This document shows, one piece after another, positions 1 through 26,307 of a stretch of 64,000 nt of DNA. Numbering within the stretch: the stretch's first letter is position 1; each line of letters opens with the position of its first letter. Below the pieces are notes generated by a model. It was given only the letters and a program-made list of their open reading frames with translations. It made no database searches and had not been told where the DNA came from. The stretch comes from Erysipelotrichaceae bacterium (GTDB lineage: Bacteria; Bacillota_I; Bacilli_A; Erysipelotrichales; Erysipelotrichaceae). The stretch lies in assembly GCA_017550145.1 (NCBI GenBank), contig JAFZQG010000004.1, positions 124,001-188,000 of the forward strand. Direction: 5' to 3'. A program made the translations under genes and the position numbers.

Positions 1-774
1 TATCGCAAACATCATGCTCTGGATCGCAAATGGAATACCGACTTTAAAGATTTCGATTACTTCTTCCTTATCAAATCTCAGCTCCTTTAAAGAGAACTGA
101 TAAATATCGCTGGTGTGATAGAAGATAAACAGGATGACCAGAGCACAGACCAGATGCGAAAGGAAAGTTGCCATTGAGGTTCCGAAGACCCCGAGTTTTA
201 AGATTCCTGCCAGAAGCAAATCAAATCCGATCTTGCAGACGGCGGTTACCATTATCAGCATCAGCGGTCTTTTTGAATCACCTAAAGCCCTTAAGATCGA
301 AACACCGGACTGATAGACAAAATAGAAGACCATCGATCCGAAATAGAAGCGCAGATACACAAGTGATGTTGAGATCGTTTCTTCAGGTGTTCCCATCAGT
401 CTGAGCAGGAAGGGGGATATGGTGATCATTAAGACGGTCAGAAAGGCGCCGAAAGAAATCGACACAAACATTCCGGTCTTGACGACGTTGGATGCCTTCT
501 CCATGTTTCCTTTACCGTAGCTCTGAGCAACTCTGACGGTTATGGCTGCCGTCAGACCCGATACACAGTTAAGGATAATATTGATGATCGAATTGGCGGA
601 ACCGCCGACGGAGGCCAGTGCCTCCTTACCGATGAAACGTCCTAAAACAACGCTGTCCGCAAAGCCATAGAACATCTGTAAAAGATAGCCCATGAACACC
701 GGGAAAAAGAACAGCATCATCTGTTCGAGAATGTTTCCGTTTAAAATATCTTTCTTACTCGAGCGGCGAAACAT
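1..774 (-). CDS. MATE family efflux transporter (N-terminal part, runs off the left edge)
   Basis: Multidrug and toxin extrusion family antiporter in the cytoplasmic membrane. About 258 residues are visible from MFRRSSKKDILNGN onward, with several long hydrophobic segments. The stretch 'MLFFFPVFMGYLLQMFYG' followed by 'FADSVVLGRFIG' is the usual first-helix region of MATE proteins, and 'NIILNCVSGLTAAITVRVAQSYG' continues the family pattern. The start is the ATG at 774, which overlaps the end of the upstream small gene by about 20 bases, so the two are probably co-transcribed. The C-terminal half lies outside the window. Substrate cannot be told from sequence. Confidence 0.88.
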   Translation of the reverse strand, partial: MFRRSSKKDILNGNILEQMMLFFFPVFMGYLLQMFYGFADSVVLGRFIGKEALASVGGSANSIINIILNCVSGLTAAITVRVAQSYGKGNMEKASNVVKTGMFVSISFGAFLTVLMITISPFLLRLMGTPEETISTSLVYLRFYFGSMVFYFVYQSGVSILRALGDSKRPLMLIMVTAVCKIGFDLLLAGILKLGVFGTSMATFLSHLVCALVILFIFYHTSDIYQFSLKELRFDKEEVIEIFKVGIPFAIQSMMFAI

Positions 775-7327: not shown

Positions 7328-7356
7328 ATTCTTAATCCTTTTCCATCTAAATAAAA

Positions 7357-7436
7357 ATGGTACACACAGACAGAGGTTCGTATGGCTGCTTGCTTCCGCA
7401 CCTGACCAAGTTAGTAACATGTTTGTTGTACCATCT
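7357..7436 (-). ncRNA. ffs: Small signal recognition particle RNA (4.5S type)
   Basis: The minus strand at 7384-7407 reads GGTCAGGTGCGG followed by AAGCAAGCAGCC, the universally conserved SRP domain IV with the asymmetric loop and GGAA tetraloop that binds Ffh. The ends pair (ATGGTACA with TGTACCAT) and are followed by TTTTTATTT as terminator. At roughly 80 bases it lacks the Alu domain of the long Bacillus RNA. It lies two genes above dnaX, the neighbourhood where Bacillus keeps its SRP RNA. Confidence 0.93.
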
Positions 7437-7438
7437 AT

Positions 7439-7467
7439 ATTTTATAGTATGTCTTTCTTTGTTTCAA
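7439..7467 (-). promoter_or_regulatory. Promoter of the SRP RNA
   Basis: On the minus strand TTGAAA (7462-7467), 17 bases, then TAAAAT (7439-7444), placed just upstream of the RNA 5' end. Nearly consensus sigma-A spacing and sequence. It overlaps the last codon of the upstream gene. Confidence 0.7.
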
Positions 7468-25403: not shown

Positions 25404-25529
25404 GTTTTGTTTCCTGCCTTTTGTTTCATCGGTAGTCGGATCTTCATACTACCAACAATACTATTTTACTCTTTTGCTTAATGTAGGCCAAATCAGACAA
25501 TTATGATAAAAAACAGAATTCAGGTTAGG

Positions 25530-25535
25530 TATTAA
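25530..25535 (+). promoter_or_regulatory. Possible -10 of toxin mRNA A
   Basis: TATTAA inside the conserved block CAGGTTAGGTATTAAA, 38 bases before the leader ATG; the same block and nearly the same spacing (26003-26008) precede unit B. No convincing -35 in unit A. Confidence 0.3.
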
Positions 25536-25573
25536 ACGATTTTTCTCAAATAATGTAATGGAGGTCAACTGTT

Positions 25574-25705
25574 ATGCTTGACTTTCTGAGGGCTGCACCA
25601 ATAAAGGTAGGAGGCTTTTTAAGTGGATATCAATGTCTGCTTAAAAATAACGATCTTCGTATTGCAGATCGCTATAGCTATCATCAATTTTCTGATATAG
25701 CTTAG
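25574..25705 (+). CDS. Leader reading frame A of the toxin-like mRNA
   Basis: Begins MLDFLRAAPIKVGG after a TGGAGG site and runs 43 residues across the toxin frame before stopping five bases after it. Only its first eight codons are shared with unit B (MFGFLRAA), so what is conserved may be the RNA element GGGCTGCA at codons 6-8 rather than the peptide. Translation could control access to the downstream ribosome site. Confidence 0.4.
   Translation: MLDFLRAAPIKVGGFLSGYQCLLKNNDLRIADRYSYHQFSDIA
25623..25700 (+). CDS. Small hydrophobic membrane peptide A (putative type I toxin)
   Basis: 25 residues, start GTG with AGGAGG eight bases upstream. The sequence is one membrane helix, with 'LKITIFVLQIAIAIINFLI' from residue 7. 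It aligns with peptide B (shared K-I, F-x-LQI, IAI and F). Size, hydrophobicity and the opposing antisense RNA match membrane-acting type I toxins such as Fst or TxpA, but the sequence is not one I recognise from those families. Confidence 0.65.
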   Translation: MDINVCLKITIFVLQIAIAIINFLI

Positions 25706-25711
25706 ATTACT

Positions 25712-25727
25712 ACATTATGTTTTTGCA
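25712..25727 (+). repeat. Direct repeat A, copy 1
   Basis: ACATTATGTTTTTGCA, repeated exactly at 25774-25789 on the far side of the hairpin. Antisense RNA A begins with the complement of copy 2 and so can pair with copy 1 in the toxin mRNA, as DRa/DRb do in the par locus. Confidence 0.75.
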
Positions 25728-25732
25728 GCCCG

Positions 25733-25788
25733 AAAAAAGGGAAAGGGTCGTGTTACAGCACGGCCCTTTCTTTACATTATGTTTTTGC
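25733..25788 (-). ncRNA. Putative antisense RNA A (antitoxin)
   Basis: Driven by the minus-strand promoter TTGAAT (25818-25823), 17 bases, GATAAT (25795-25800). The hairpin GAAAGGGTCGTG / CACGGCCCTTTC (25741-25752 / 25759-25770) followed by six T on the minus strand would end it after about 56 bases. Fully complementary to the 3' end of toxin mRNA A. Confidence 0.6.
25741..25773. terminator. Bidirectional terminator of unit A
   Basis: Twelve-pair stem (one G-U) with loop TTACAG. Stops the toxin mRNA rightward and the antisense RNA leftward. Confidence 0.75.
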
Positions 25789-25789
25789 A
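25774..25789 (+). repeat. Direct repeat A, copy 2
   Basis: Exact copy of 25712-25727, forming the 5' end of antisense RNA A. Confidence 0.75.
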
Positions 25790-25794
25790 TCATT

Positions 25795-25823
25795 ATTATC
25801 TCATCTTAACGTTTTATATTCAA
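25795..25823 (-). promoter_or_regulatory. Antisense promoter A
   Basis: Minus strand TTGAAT, N17, GATAAT. The same element, with 17-base spacing, is at 25931-25959 and 26258-26286. Confidence 0.7.
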
Positions 25824-25864
25824 TGAAGTCTGTTTGGAAAACTTATAAAAAAACGCATTTCTTT

Positions 25865-25924
25865 CCTTATAAAGCGAAAGGGTCGTGTTCATAGCGCGGC
25901 CCTTTCTTTACTATCGTACTTAGC
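25865..25924 (-). ncRNA. Orphan antisense RNA (middle unit without a toxin)
   Basis: Promoter TTGATT, N17, GATAAT (25954-25959 / 25931-25936) reads leftward through hairpin GAAAGGGTCGTG / CGCGGCCCTTTC (25876-25887 / 25895-25906). The stem is kept by wobble pairs. No peptide frame or leader block is left in this unit. The T run after the hairpin on the minus strand is weak. Confidence 0.5.
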
Positions 25925-25930
25925 ATAATT

Positions 25931-25959
25931 ATTATCTCATCTTAACGATCTATAATCAA
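25931..25959 (-). promoter_or_regulatory. Antisense promoter, middle unit
   Basis: Minus strand TTGATT, 17 bases, GATAAT, embedded in ATTATCTCATCTTAACG shared with unit A. Confidence 0.65.
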
Positions 25960-26045
25960 CGAAACATGCGTATAGTTCGTTTGTTTTTTGTTTCAGGTTA
26001 GGTATTAAATGGTTTTTTGCAAATAATGTATTGGAGGTCATTCAT

Positions 26046-26096
26046 ATGTTTGGCTTTCTTAGGGCCGCACAAAAAAAGAAGGAGGCCTGTAGTTGA
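26046..26096 (+). CDS. Leader reading frame B of the toxin-like mRNA
   Basis: 16 residues, MFGFLRAAQKKKEACS, after TTGGAGG. It contains the ribosome site of peptide B, and its TGA overlaps the peptide's TTG start, which would allow translational coupling. Confidence 0.4.
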   Translation: MFGFLRAAQKKKEACS

Positions 26097-26164
26097 ATAT
26101 GTACTACAAGATTATTGTCTTCATATTGCAGATAATAATCGCTATTGTCACGTTTGTGATGTAG
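26093..26164 (+). CDS. Small hydrophobic membrane peptide B (putative type I toxin)
   Basis: 23 residues from TTG at 26093, with AAGGAGG seven bases upstream; an ATG at 26099 would give 21 residues but is 13 bases from that site. 'YYKIIVFILQIIIAIVTFVM' is a single membrane helix and a clear relative of peptide A. Codon-level differences between A and B with the hydrophobic pattern kept suggest selection on the peptide. Confidence 0.65.
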   Translation: MNMYYKIIVFILQIIIAIVTFVM

Positions 26165-26194
26165 TTTAAAGGTTTAATTCATTGCTGCGGCCCG

Positions 26195-26251
26195 AAAAAA
26201 GGGAAAGGATCGTGTTGAGACCACGATCCTTTCTTTTTAATTCATTACTGC
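26195..26251 (-). ncRNA. Putative antisense RNA B (antitoxin)
   Basis: Promoter TTGAGT (26281-26286), 17 bases, GATAAT (26258-26263) on the minus strand; ended by GAAAGGATCGTG / CACGATCCTTTC (26203-26214 / 26222-26233) plus six T. About 57 bases. Confidence 0.6.
26203..26238. terminator. Bidirectional terminator of unit B
   Basis: Twelve perfect pairs, seven-base loop, TTTTT on the plus side and TTTTTT on the minus side. Compared with unit A, two stem positions differ but stay paired. Confidence 0.8.
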
Positions 26252-26257
26252 AATAAT

Positions 26258-26286
26258 ATTATCTCATTTATTATCCATGGACTCAA
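26258..26286 (-). promoter_or_regulatory. Antisense promoter B
   Basis: Minus strand TTGAGT, 17 bases, GATAAT. Lies between the toxin unit and the end of the neighbouring lipoprotein gene. Confidence 0.65.
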
Positions 26287-26307
26287 CAACATTCGTGCGT
26301 CTTTTTA

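Follow-up and report, generated by a model that had tools for sequence, protein, structure and literature searches.

Tandem type I toxin-antitoxin-like units behind SigH/ComX-type promoters: a probable new family in an Erysipelotrichaceae genus

A stretch of 64,000 nucleotides (nt) from an Erysipelotrichaceae bacterium (contig JAFZQG010000004.1 of assembly GCA_017550145.1, positions 124,001 to 188,000, hereafter the window) holds, at 25519-26290, two type I toxin-antitoxin-like units in tandem, each with an antisense gene that converges on it. Conservation, RNA covariation and the codon-position pattern of the peptide frame strongly support the reading of this region as an array of type I toxin-antitoxin-like modules whose RNAs converge. 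We consider it probable, at about two chances in three, that each unit is a module of a new family that belongs to the SigH/ComX competence regulon, has a par-like layout without being a member of par, and encodes a putative toxin.

The Array and Its Relatives in the Genus

The first-pass annotation of the window had described two tandem units, each coding for a peptide of 23-25 amino acids (aa) behind an AGGAGG site. Both are present, with AGGAGG upstream of the peptide frame in unit 1 as in unit 2. Upstream, the two units have in common a block of 49 nt (25519-25567 and 25992-26040, 90% alike), which contains a SigH/ComX-type promoter. The flanking direct repeats are unit-specific, as had been proposed: TACATTATGTTTTTGCA is repeated with 17/17 identity in unit 1, and TTTAATTCATTRCTGC, of a different sequence, with 15/16 identity in unit 2. 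The minus-strand promoters of the form TTGANT-N17-GATAAT were also recovered in both units (Table 1). That the array stands above chance is borne out by the folds of the two predicted toxin mRNAs (z -8.0 and -8.5) and by the recurrence of the design in 13 units of 7 species. The annotation had missed an orphan antisense/terminator copy, a second array and the competence-type promoter.

The second array of the same genome, again of two units, lies at 358624-359291 of contig C25, with a decayed orphan adjoining. In total, 7 of the 36 genomes of the genus carry 13 units, whose parts stand in the same order; those outside the genome of the window are G003, G006, G018, G014, G035b, G031a, G031b, G031c and G031d. 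Units G031b-d, G014 and G035b were detected by a peptide profile, and the thirteenth unit, G018 (locus L102), was spotted among promoter-class controls by its hidden Shine-Dalgarno (SD) sequence and unusual fold. The profile, built from 13 peptides (those of 12 units and of a unit remnant without terminator in G035, with G031b omitted), leads to 14 places in the 7 genomes, namely the 13 units and the G035 remnant.

Searches were also extended beyond the genus. Among the 236 further genomes from the family, the peptide profile gave 2 matches, inside frames of 842 and 555 aa, and no unit was confirmed. In a sample of 395 genomes of the class it gave 3 matches and again no confirmed unit: L225 sits in a 135-aa frame, and L223 and L224 were discarded as units on reading. 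The order-wide matches L045 and L050 were discarded by eye. A contig-pattern scan of 84,980 species confirmed no unit beyond the genus; its pattern covers only 7 of the 13 known units, so that about half could be missed. The 15 matches of the genome-contig scan include 3 real ones (two with the relaxed promoter pattern, one with C before AATAATG), the others being without promoter and terminator. There was no match in plasmid records; the IMG/VR pattern scan matched 4 + 2 contigs, none seen with promoter or unit; and the neighbouring gene of the array, used as a query for related loci, found no relative. Judged from its sequences, the array represents a real, conserved family, so far found in one genus.

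The Putative Toxin Peptide

A KIxxFVLQIxIAI-like hydrophobic core is common to the 13 peptides that were aligned, those of 12 units and of the G035 remnant. These putative membrane peptides are mostly 23-28 aa long and, by eye, look like bare transmembrane segments. Over the 16 core codons of 12 toxins (G031b omitted, related pairs counted), the mismatch rate of the toxin frame is 0.40/0.20/0.60 by codon position (1,056 codon pairs), a pattern which indicates protein-level constraint on the predicted frame. The peptides had been annotated as unrecognised, and indeed none has a family match in Pfam, NCBIfam or PHROGs, the best hits being at chance level (SecE, E 0.068; TIGR04561, E 0.088). The longer forms of two peptides gave sub-cut-off matches only, and no PDB sequence matches the profile. 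In G006 and G031a (loci L033 and L047), the toxin frame continues through the terminator hairpin, which encodes a basic tail, MRKGR.ATRPFL.

Computed Folding of the Predicted Toxin mRNA

For all calculations the start of the predicted mRNA was set at the leader SD. The fold z scores of 12 units range from -6.3 to -11.8 (mean -8.4), to be compared with a mean of -0.7 for 44 control segments of 220 nt that follow the same promoter pattern elsewhere; the lowest of these controls, L102 (-5.9), is the later thirteenth unit. The leader SD has a mean accessibility of 0.07 in 12 units (highest 29%, in G031b) versus 0.42 in the 44 controls. The pairing of the 5' stem-loop is unit-specific (0/20,000 permutations as good), and in the computed fold the toxin start is covered by a local hairpin in most units.

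A further helix, named here the closing helix, pairs the leader with the 3' untranslated region (UTR). Its arms are GGGCTGCA/TGCAGCCC in unit 1, GGGCCGCA/TGCGGCCC in unit 2, TTGTGTGCAGGG/CCCTGCACACAA in G003 and others elsewhere. Cognate arms reach -27.2 kcal/mol versus -17.9 kcal/mol when leader and 3' regions are swapped between units; none of 100,000 permutations did as well, the own partner is the best one in 10 of the 13 units, and the permutation count is still 0 after removal of two near copies (11/13 units kept). This helix also accounts for the leader frame M-x-x-FLRAA, which the first-pass annotation had taken as a peptide motif. FLRAA is seen only in the 4 units of the genome of the window; in these, GGGCYGCA, which makes up part of the RAA codons, is an arm of the closing helix. 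A conserved leader peptide was therefore ruled out: the FLRAA stretch is an arm of a 5'-3' RNA helix that is re-formed with other sequences in the relatives. Leader and toxin share a reading frame in 4 units (B1, G006, G031c, G031d) and are out of frame in 8.

No Rfam family matches the region at its gathering score. Positions 25615-25692 resemble the Listeria sRNA rli40 below threshold (25.6 bits, gathering 100, E 3e-4 in a 791-base search); the sub-threshold matches to rli40, symR, RatA and MicC were set aside as chance hairpin similarity.

The Predicted Antisense RNA and Shared Terminator

The first-pass annotation had named conservation of the peptide frame and of the antisense promoter in relatives as a check. 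The core is kept in the peptide alignment, and an extended -10 (TG-N-TATAAT-like) is found on the minus strand of 13/13 units versus 9% of shuffled flanks, although the pattern had been drawn up on the very units it was scored on. The TTGANT -35 box characterises the units of the window's own genome. Promoter-like sites number 9 in the stretch and 4.3 in shuffles, so that the hexamers alone are weak evidence.

The first 26 nt of the predicted antisense RNA fit the 3' UTR of their own unit with a mean of -23.6 kcal/mol, and those of the other units with -10.2 kcal/mol. The own target is the best of its row in 12/13 cases, and 0/100,000 permutations were as good. No unit-specific match of the antisense 5' end was detected to the leader start, the toxin start or the coding region (10,941, 3,384 and 13,438 of 20,000 permutations as good, respectively). 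The predicted target site adjoins or overlaps the closing helix. Moreover, the leader and the antisense 5' end have 7-9 nt in common in G006, G031a, G031b, G031c and G031d, and 4 nt (TGCA) in units U1 and B2; in the remaining six units the longest common stretch measures 3-6 nt, possibly by chance. These observations led to the proposal that the antisense may invade the closing helix.

As for the hairpin that follows each peptide frame, a 12-pair bidirectional structure had been announced for both units. Unit 2 does have 12 pairs and unit 1 has 16 (16 and 17 when weak outer pairs are counted), and the terminator scan flagged one strand per unit, + in unit 1 and - in unit 2. Among the 8 nt past the stem, T occurs 4 (+) and 6 (-) times in unit 1 and 5 and 6 times in unit 2, with lower counts in several relatives. 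A GC-rich hairpin is found in every unit, and at least 4 T of 8 follow it on the + side in 7/12 and on the - side in 6/12 scored units (B1 was mis-scored). A "bidirectional" terminator is thus a reading of the sequence.

Antisense/terminator copies without toxin also occur in G029 and G003. Such orphan copies lie at 25871-25963 of the window, at ~300-440 (minus) of locus L009, at ~1505-1575 of L031 and at ~1505-1580 of L035. The best fits of the orphan antisense among the 13 units are -14.0 (window), -16.7 (G029) and -16.1 (G003) kcal/mol (the L009 copy is not in this set), weaker than the cognate mean, yet within the range of the two weakest cognates. These copies are possibly remnants, or a standing protection against incoming units.

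The Promoter and Its Predicted Regulon

The predicted toxin promoter is of the SigH/ComX type, which is common to late competence genes, and may depend on SigH. In the genome of the window, the strict pattern AGGTA-N12..22-CAAATAATG has 16 sites, in which the gap is always 15, and the reversed control has 0. Downstream of these sites are dprA, recA, a CpaB-like gene, ORF6N, a metallophosphatase gene, three units and unclassified genes, as well as a RelB antitoxin (no toxin seen following), a Phd-like antitoxin with a 140-aa frame, a Gp49(HigB)-like/HTH pair and another HTH antitoxin-like pair, whose first gene was not scanned. Altogether, 7 of the 16 strict sites precede toxin-antitoxin-like genes or units. 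When the pattern is relaxed, 249 sites are obtained across the 36 genus genomes versus 76 for the control; the relaxed pattern exceeds the control in 28/36 genomes, with 26 versus 7 in the window's own (G000). It is matched in 8 of the 13 units.

Among 40 regions at listed sites (G000, G003, G006, G010, G018), whose genes were named by family scans for the own copies only and otherwise by eye, several sites stand before dprA, recA, recN and genes which we take to be comFA-like. HicB antitoxins and PD-(D/E)XK or YhgA-like nuclease genes also occur among the promoter regions. In several species, protein toxin-antitoxin genes (L020, L021, L024, L026, L093, L114, L120) and nuclease genes (L094, L096, L110, L116) are found directly behind the promoter or a few hundred bases downstream.

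With a weight matrix built from the 16 strict sites, a promoter was located before the comGA-like gene of the same genome (AGGTATTTCTGATTTTTCTGCGAATTATG, 0/300 shuffles). At ≤8/300 shuffles, the matrix matched 6 of 11 comGA-like genes and 0 of 4 pilT-like genes. The comGA-like gene L218 is without the AGG box, and the strict regular expression matched none of the comGA-like genes. A sigma-70 family gene lies between an rlmB-like and a nusG-like gene, as we take these to be, which is presumably the classical position of sigH. Among the NCBIfam matches listed for it, only the sigma-70 superfamily is above its cut-off and the SigH models are below theirs. In Lactobacillus sakei, SigH is reported to activate comEA and comGA (PMC3364868). 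In the window's own genome, a 94%-complete assembly, no ComEC match (PF03772) was found, though comGA-like and comFA-like genes and dprA are present; L090, considered as a ComEC fragment, was dropped for want of a Pfam match.

Two further observations concern the same promoter class. At L027, L106, L119, L090 and L050, the SD lies in a short inverted repeat (e.g., AGTAGGAGAACTACTCATTTTTT-ATG) before a membrane-like protein of ~200 aa or an unclassified frame, an arrangement that resembles a switch acting on translation or by attenuation. The G014 unit is directly followed by a second promoter of this class (L181, ~170-130, minus), with no recognisable gene after it.

Features of the Window

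The features of the array are collected in Table 1. Elsewhere in the window, a bacterial small signal recognition particle RNA (RF00169, 55.3 bits) lies at 7349-7439 on the minus strand.

Table 1. Predicted parts of the two units and of the orphan copy (positions in the window; ORF, open reading frame; DRa and DRb, the two copies of the direct repeat).
Feature	Position	Strand	Basis or remark
Unit 1 SigH/ComX-type promoter, AGGTATT-N-CAAATAATG	25527..25555	+	strict genome pattern
Unit 1 predicted toxin mRNA, taken from the leader SD through the terminator	25560..25773	+	fold z -8.0 / -7.9
Unit 1 leader SD, GGAGG	25560-25564	+	inside 5' stem-loop
Unit 1 leader ORF of 43 aa, in another frame than the toxin	25574..25705	+	not kept as protein across units
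Unit 1 closing helix, 5' arm GGGCTGCA	25590..25597	+	fold and pairing permutations
Unit 1 putative toxin peptide MDINVCLKITIFVLQIAIAIINFLI, 25 aa, GTG start	25623..25700	+	alignment, codon-position pattern
Unit 1 DRa, predicted antisense target in mRNA 3' UTR	25711..25727	+	repeat search, pairing
Unit 1 closing helix, 3' arm TGCAGCCC, shares 4 nt with DRa	25724..25731	+	fold and pairing permutations
Unit 1 putative shared hairpin terminator	25738..25773	.	hairpin scan
Unit 1 DRb, the initial 17 nt of the predicted antisense RNA (start ~25789)	25773..25789	-	repeat, pairing
Unit 1 antisense promoter, TTGAAT-N17-GATAAT, extended -10 TG	25795..25823	-	promoter scan
Orphan antisense gene and terminator between the units, without toxin gene or DRa	25871..25963	-	repeat and hairpin scan
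Unit 2 SigH/ComX-type promoter	26000..26028	+	strict genome pattern
Unit 2 predicted toxin mRNA	26033..26238	+	fold z -8.5 / -8.3
Unit 2 leader ORF MFGFLRAAQKKKEACS	26046..26096	+	ORF list, alignment of units
Unit 2 closing helix, 5' arm GGGCCGCA, compensatory change relative to unit 1	26062..26069	+	fold
Unit 2 putative toxin peptide MNMYYKIIVFILQIIIAIVTFVM, 23 aa, TTG start	26093..26164	+	alignment
Unit 2 DRa	26173..26188	+	repeat search, pairing
Unit 2 closing helix, 3' arm TGCGGCCC, shares 3 nt with DRa	26186..26193	+	fold
Unit 2 putative shared hairpin terminator	26198..26238	.	hairpin scan
Unit 2 DRb, antisense RNA 5' end, predicted start ~26252	26236..26251	-	repeat, pairing
Unit 2 antisense promoter, TTGAGT-N17-GATAAT, extended -10 TG	26258..26286	-	promoter scan

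A Proposed Mechanism

It can be proposed that the SigH-type promoter, a class assigned like the peptide frame from conservation, would drive an mRNA of ~180-225 nt for a small membrane peptide. According to the computed folds, this mRNA would be locked: the 5' stem-loop would hide the leader SD, the local hairpin the toxin start, and the closing helix would tie the leader to the 3' UTR. Translation would probably begin via the SD-equipped leader. On the other strand, a housekeeping-type extended -10 promoter would make, probably constitutively, an antisense RNA of ~50-60 nt, of which the first ~17-26 nt are predicted to match only the 3' UTR of the same unit, the remainder being the complementary terminator hairpin. 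This RNA would invade the closing helix, and the 3' end, once paired, would be degraded, probably by RNase III, which acts in 3'-overlapping type I systems of Bacillus. Toxin synthesis would then require competence-driven mRNA in excess of the constitutive antisense, and the resulting growth or membrane effect would be confined to competent cells. More tentatively, and at somewhat less than even odds, such a competence-wired type I family, whose constitutive antisense RNA would enter the closing helix of a 5'-3' locked mRNA from the 3' UTR and so control it, may be one part of a set of toxin-antitoxin and nuclease genes induced with DNA uptake in this genus, that is, of a competence-state arrest or gatekeeping programme.

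It should be noted that several observations weigh against the interpretation of the units as antisense-controlled modules of a competence regulon. The promoters of G031a, G031c, G031d, G014 and G035b are variants seen by eye only, that of G035b being poor; 5 of the 11 comGA-like genes have no significant matrix match; and 29 of the 36 genomes of the genus, many of them incomplete, yielded no unit with the peptide profile. The -10 boxes and antisense starts were placed by eye, and the permutations treat related units as exchangeable. The antisense of G031b fits G031c (-18.3 kcal/mol) better than itself (-14.6), the cognate fit of G031a is weak (-16.6 kcal/mol), and G031b is without the usual toxin start, owing to a frame shift relative to its paralogs. 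About half of the units have poor T tails, and the RNA ends are therefore uncertain. Finally, when the 3' arm is deleted or blocked in silico, the mean accessibility rises only from 0.07 to 0.14 for the leader SD and from 0.07 to 0.10 for the toxin start, and the toxin start of unit 2 is 65% open even with the 3' arm in place. As removal of the arm barely changes start accessibility, a simple model in which a released 3' end unlocks translation is unsupported.

Alternative Readings and Comparison With Known Systems

The very strong RNA folding and the orphan antisense/terminator copies without toxin gene would also fit a conserved element that is primarily a structured RNA, either a riboregulator or a mobile repeat, with an incidental peptide. 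This is, however, very improbable in view of the codon-position pattern over 12 toxin frames and of a hydrophobic core that is kept despite differing nucleotide sequence. Alternatively, the peptides could be competence-induced secreted or fratricidal peptides or signals, the antisense merely tuning their dosage. The competence-type promoter and the tandem arrays of paralogous peptides speak in favour of such a role, and competent streptococci do produce bacteriocins. Yet by eye the peptides have no leader of the double-glycine or signal-peptidase type and keep their bare transmembrane look, and mRNA locking combined with one antisense per unit is typical of internally acting type I toxins, so that a secreted product appears unlikely.

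The third alternative, that the units are true but divergent members of the par/Fst family, bears on the par/Fst-style design claimed by the first-pass annotation. The layout is indeed that of par (RNA I-RNA II of pAD1, toxin Fst, and chromosomal homologs) (PMC7472228): a toxin mRNA of ~180-230 nt that converges with a small antisense RNA, convergent promoters, a shared hairpin (in the units a putative terminator), direct repeats that form a second, unit-specific pairing region, and a 5' stem-loop that sequesters the SD. Family membership did not hold. The Fst signature consists of a PXXXG-type motif, a Trp and a charged C-terminus (PMC7472228), whereas the peptides of the units have neither a PXXXG-type motif nor a conserved Trp, the 23-25 aa forms have no charged C-terminus, and no Pfam or NCBIfam family is matched. 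Moreover, the direct repeats of par act at the initiation site (PMC7472228), whereas those of the units lie within the 3' UTR, and no unit-specific complementarity was detected between the antisense and the start sites or the coding region. The leader ORF, the closing helix and the SigH-type promoter are additional. Fst membership was rejected on the peptide signature and the position of the repeat, and even a distant kinship within that family seems highly unlikely. A new type I family with a par-like layout is accordingly preferred to these three readings. The functions of the chromosomal par relatives remain obscure (PMC7472228); for the present units, the promoter offers a concrete hypothesis, namely induction during competence.

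Other type I systems share some of the parts. The hok/sok system is characterised by long-range 5'-3' folding of the toxin mRNA and by the leader mok. The units resemble it in their predicted long-range 5'-3' pairing, here the closing helix, and in a leader ORF with an SD of its own that precedes or overlaps the toxin frame. They differ from it in that the predicted antisense converges from the 3' side and has no unit-specific match in the leader ribosome-binding region, the peptides are of another kind, the leader is not kept as protein, and in-silico removal of the 3' arm barely frees the starts. In TxpA/RatA and BsrG/SR4 of Bacillus subtilis, as predicted for the units, the overlap of antisense and toxin mRNA is confined to the 3' end of the latter. 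In the units, by contrast, the antisense would be of ~50-60 nt and pair via a direct repeat, with a closing helix at the same place; the Rfam RatA model scores 22.5 bits against a gathering score of 49, and the peptides have no family match. Competence control of a toxin-antitoxin operon is described for toxTA of Haemophilus influenzae, which differs in being a type II protein system of the CRP/Sxy regulon in a Gram-negative organism (PMC6957337). In the open-access literature searched, no title or abstract describes a competence-controlled type I system, which is no proof of absence.

A competence promoter shared with several toxin-antitoxin and nuclease genes would bear on the coupling of DNA uptake to growth control. 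With 13 units, in which the closing helix sequences vary between species, the predicted RNA design, a 5'-3' closing helix beside a 3'-UTR antisense site, is unlike that of both par and hok/sok.

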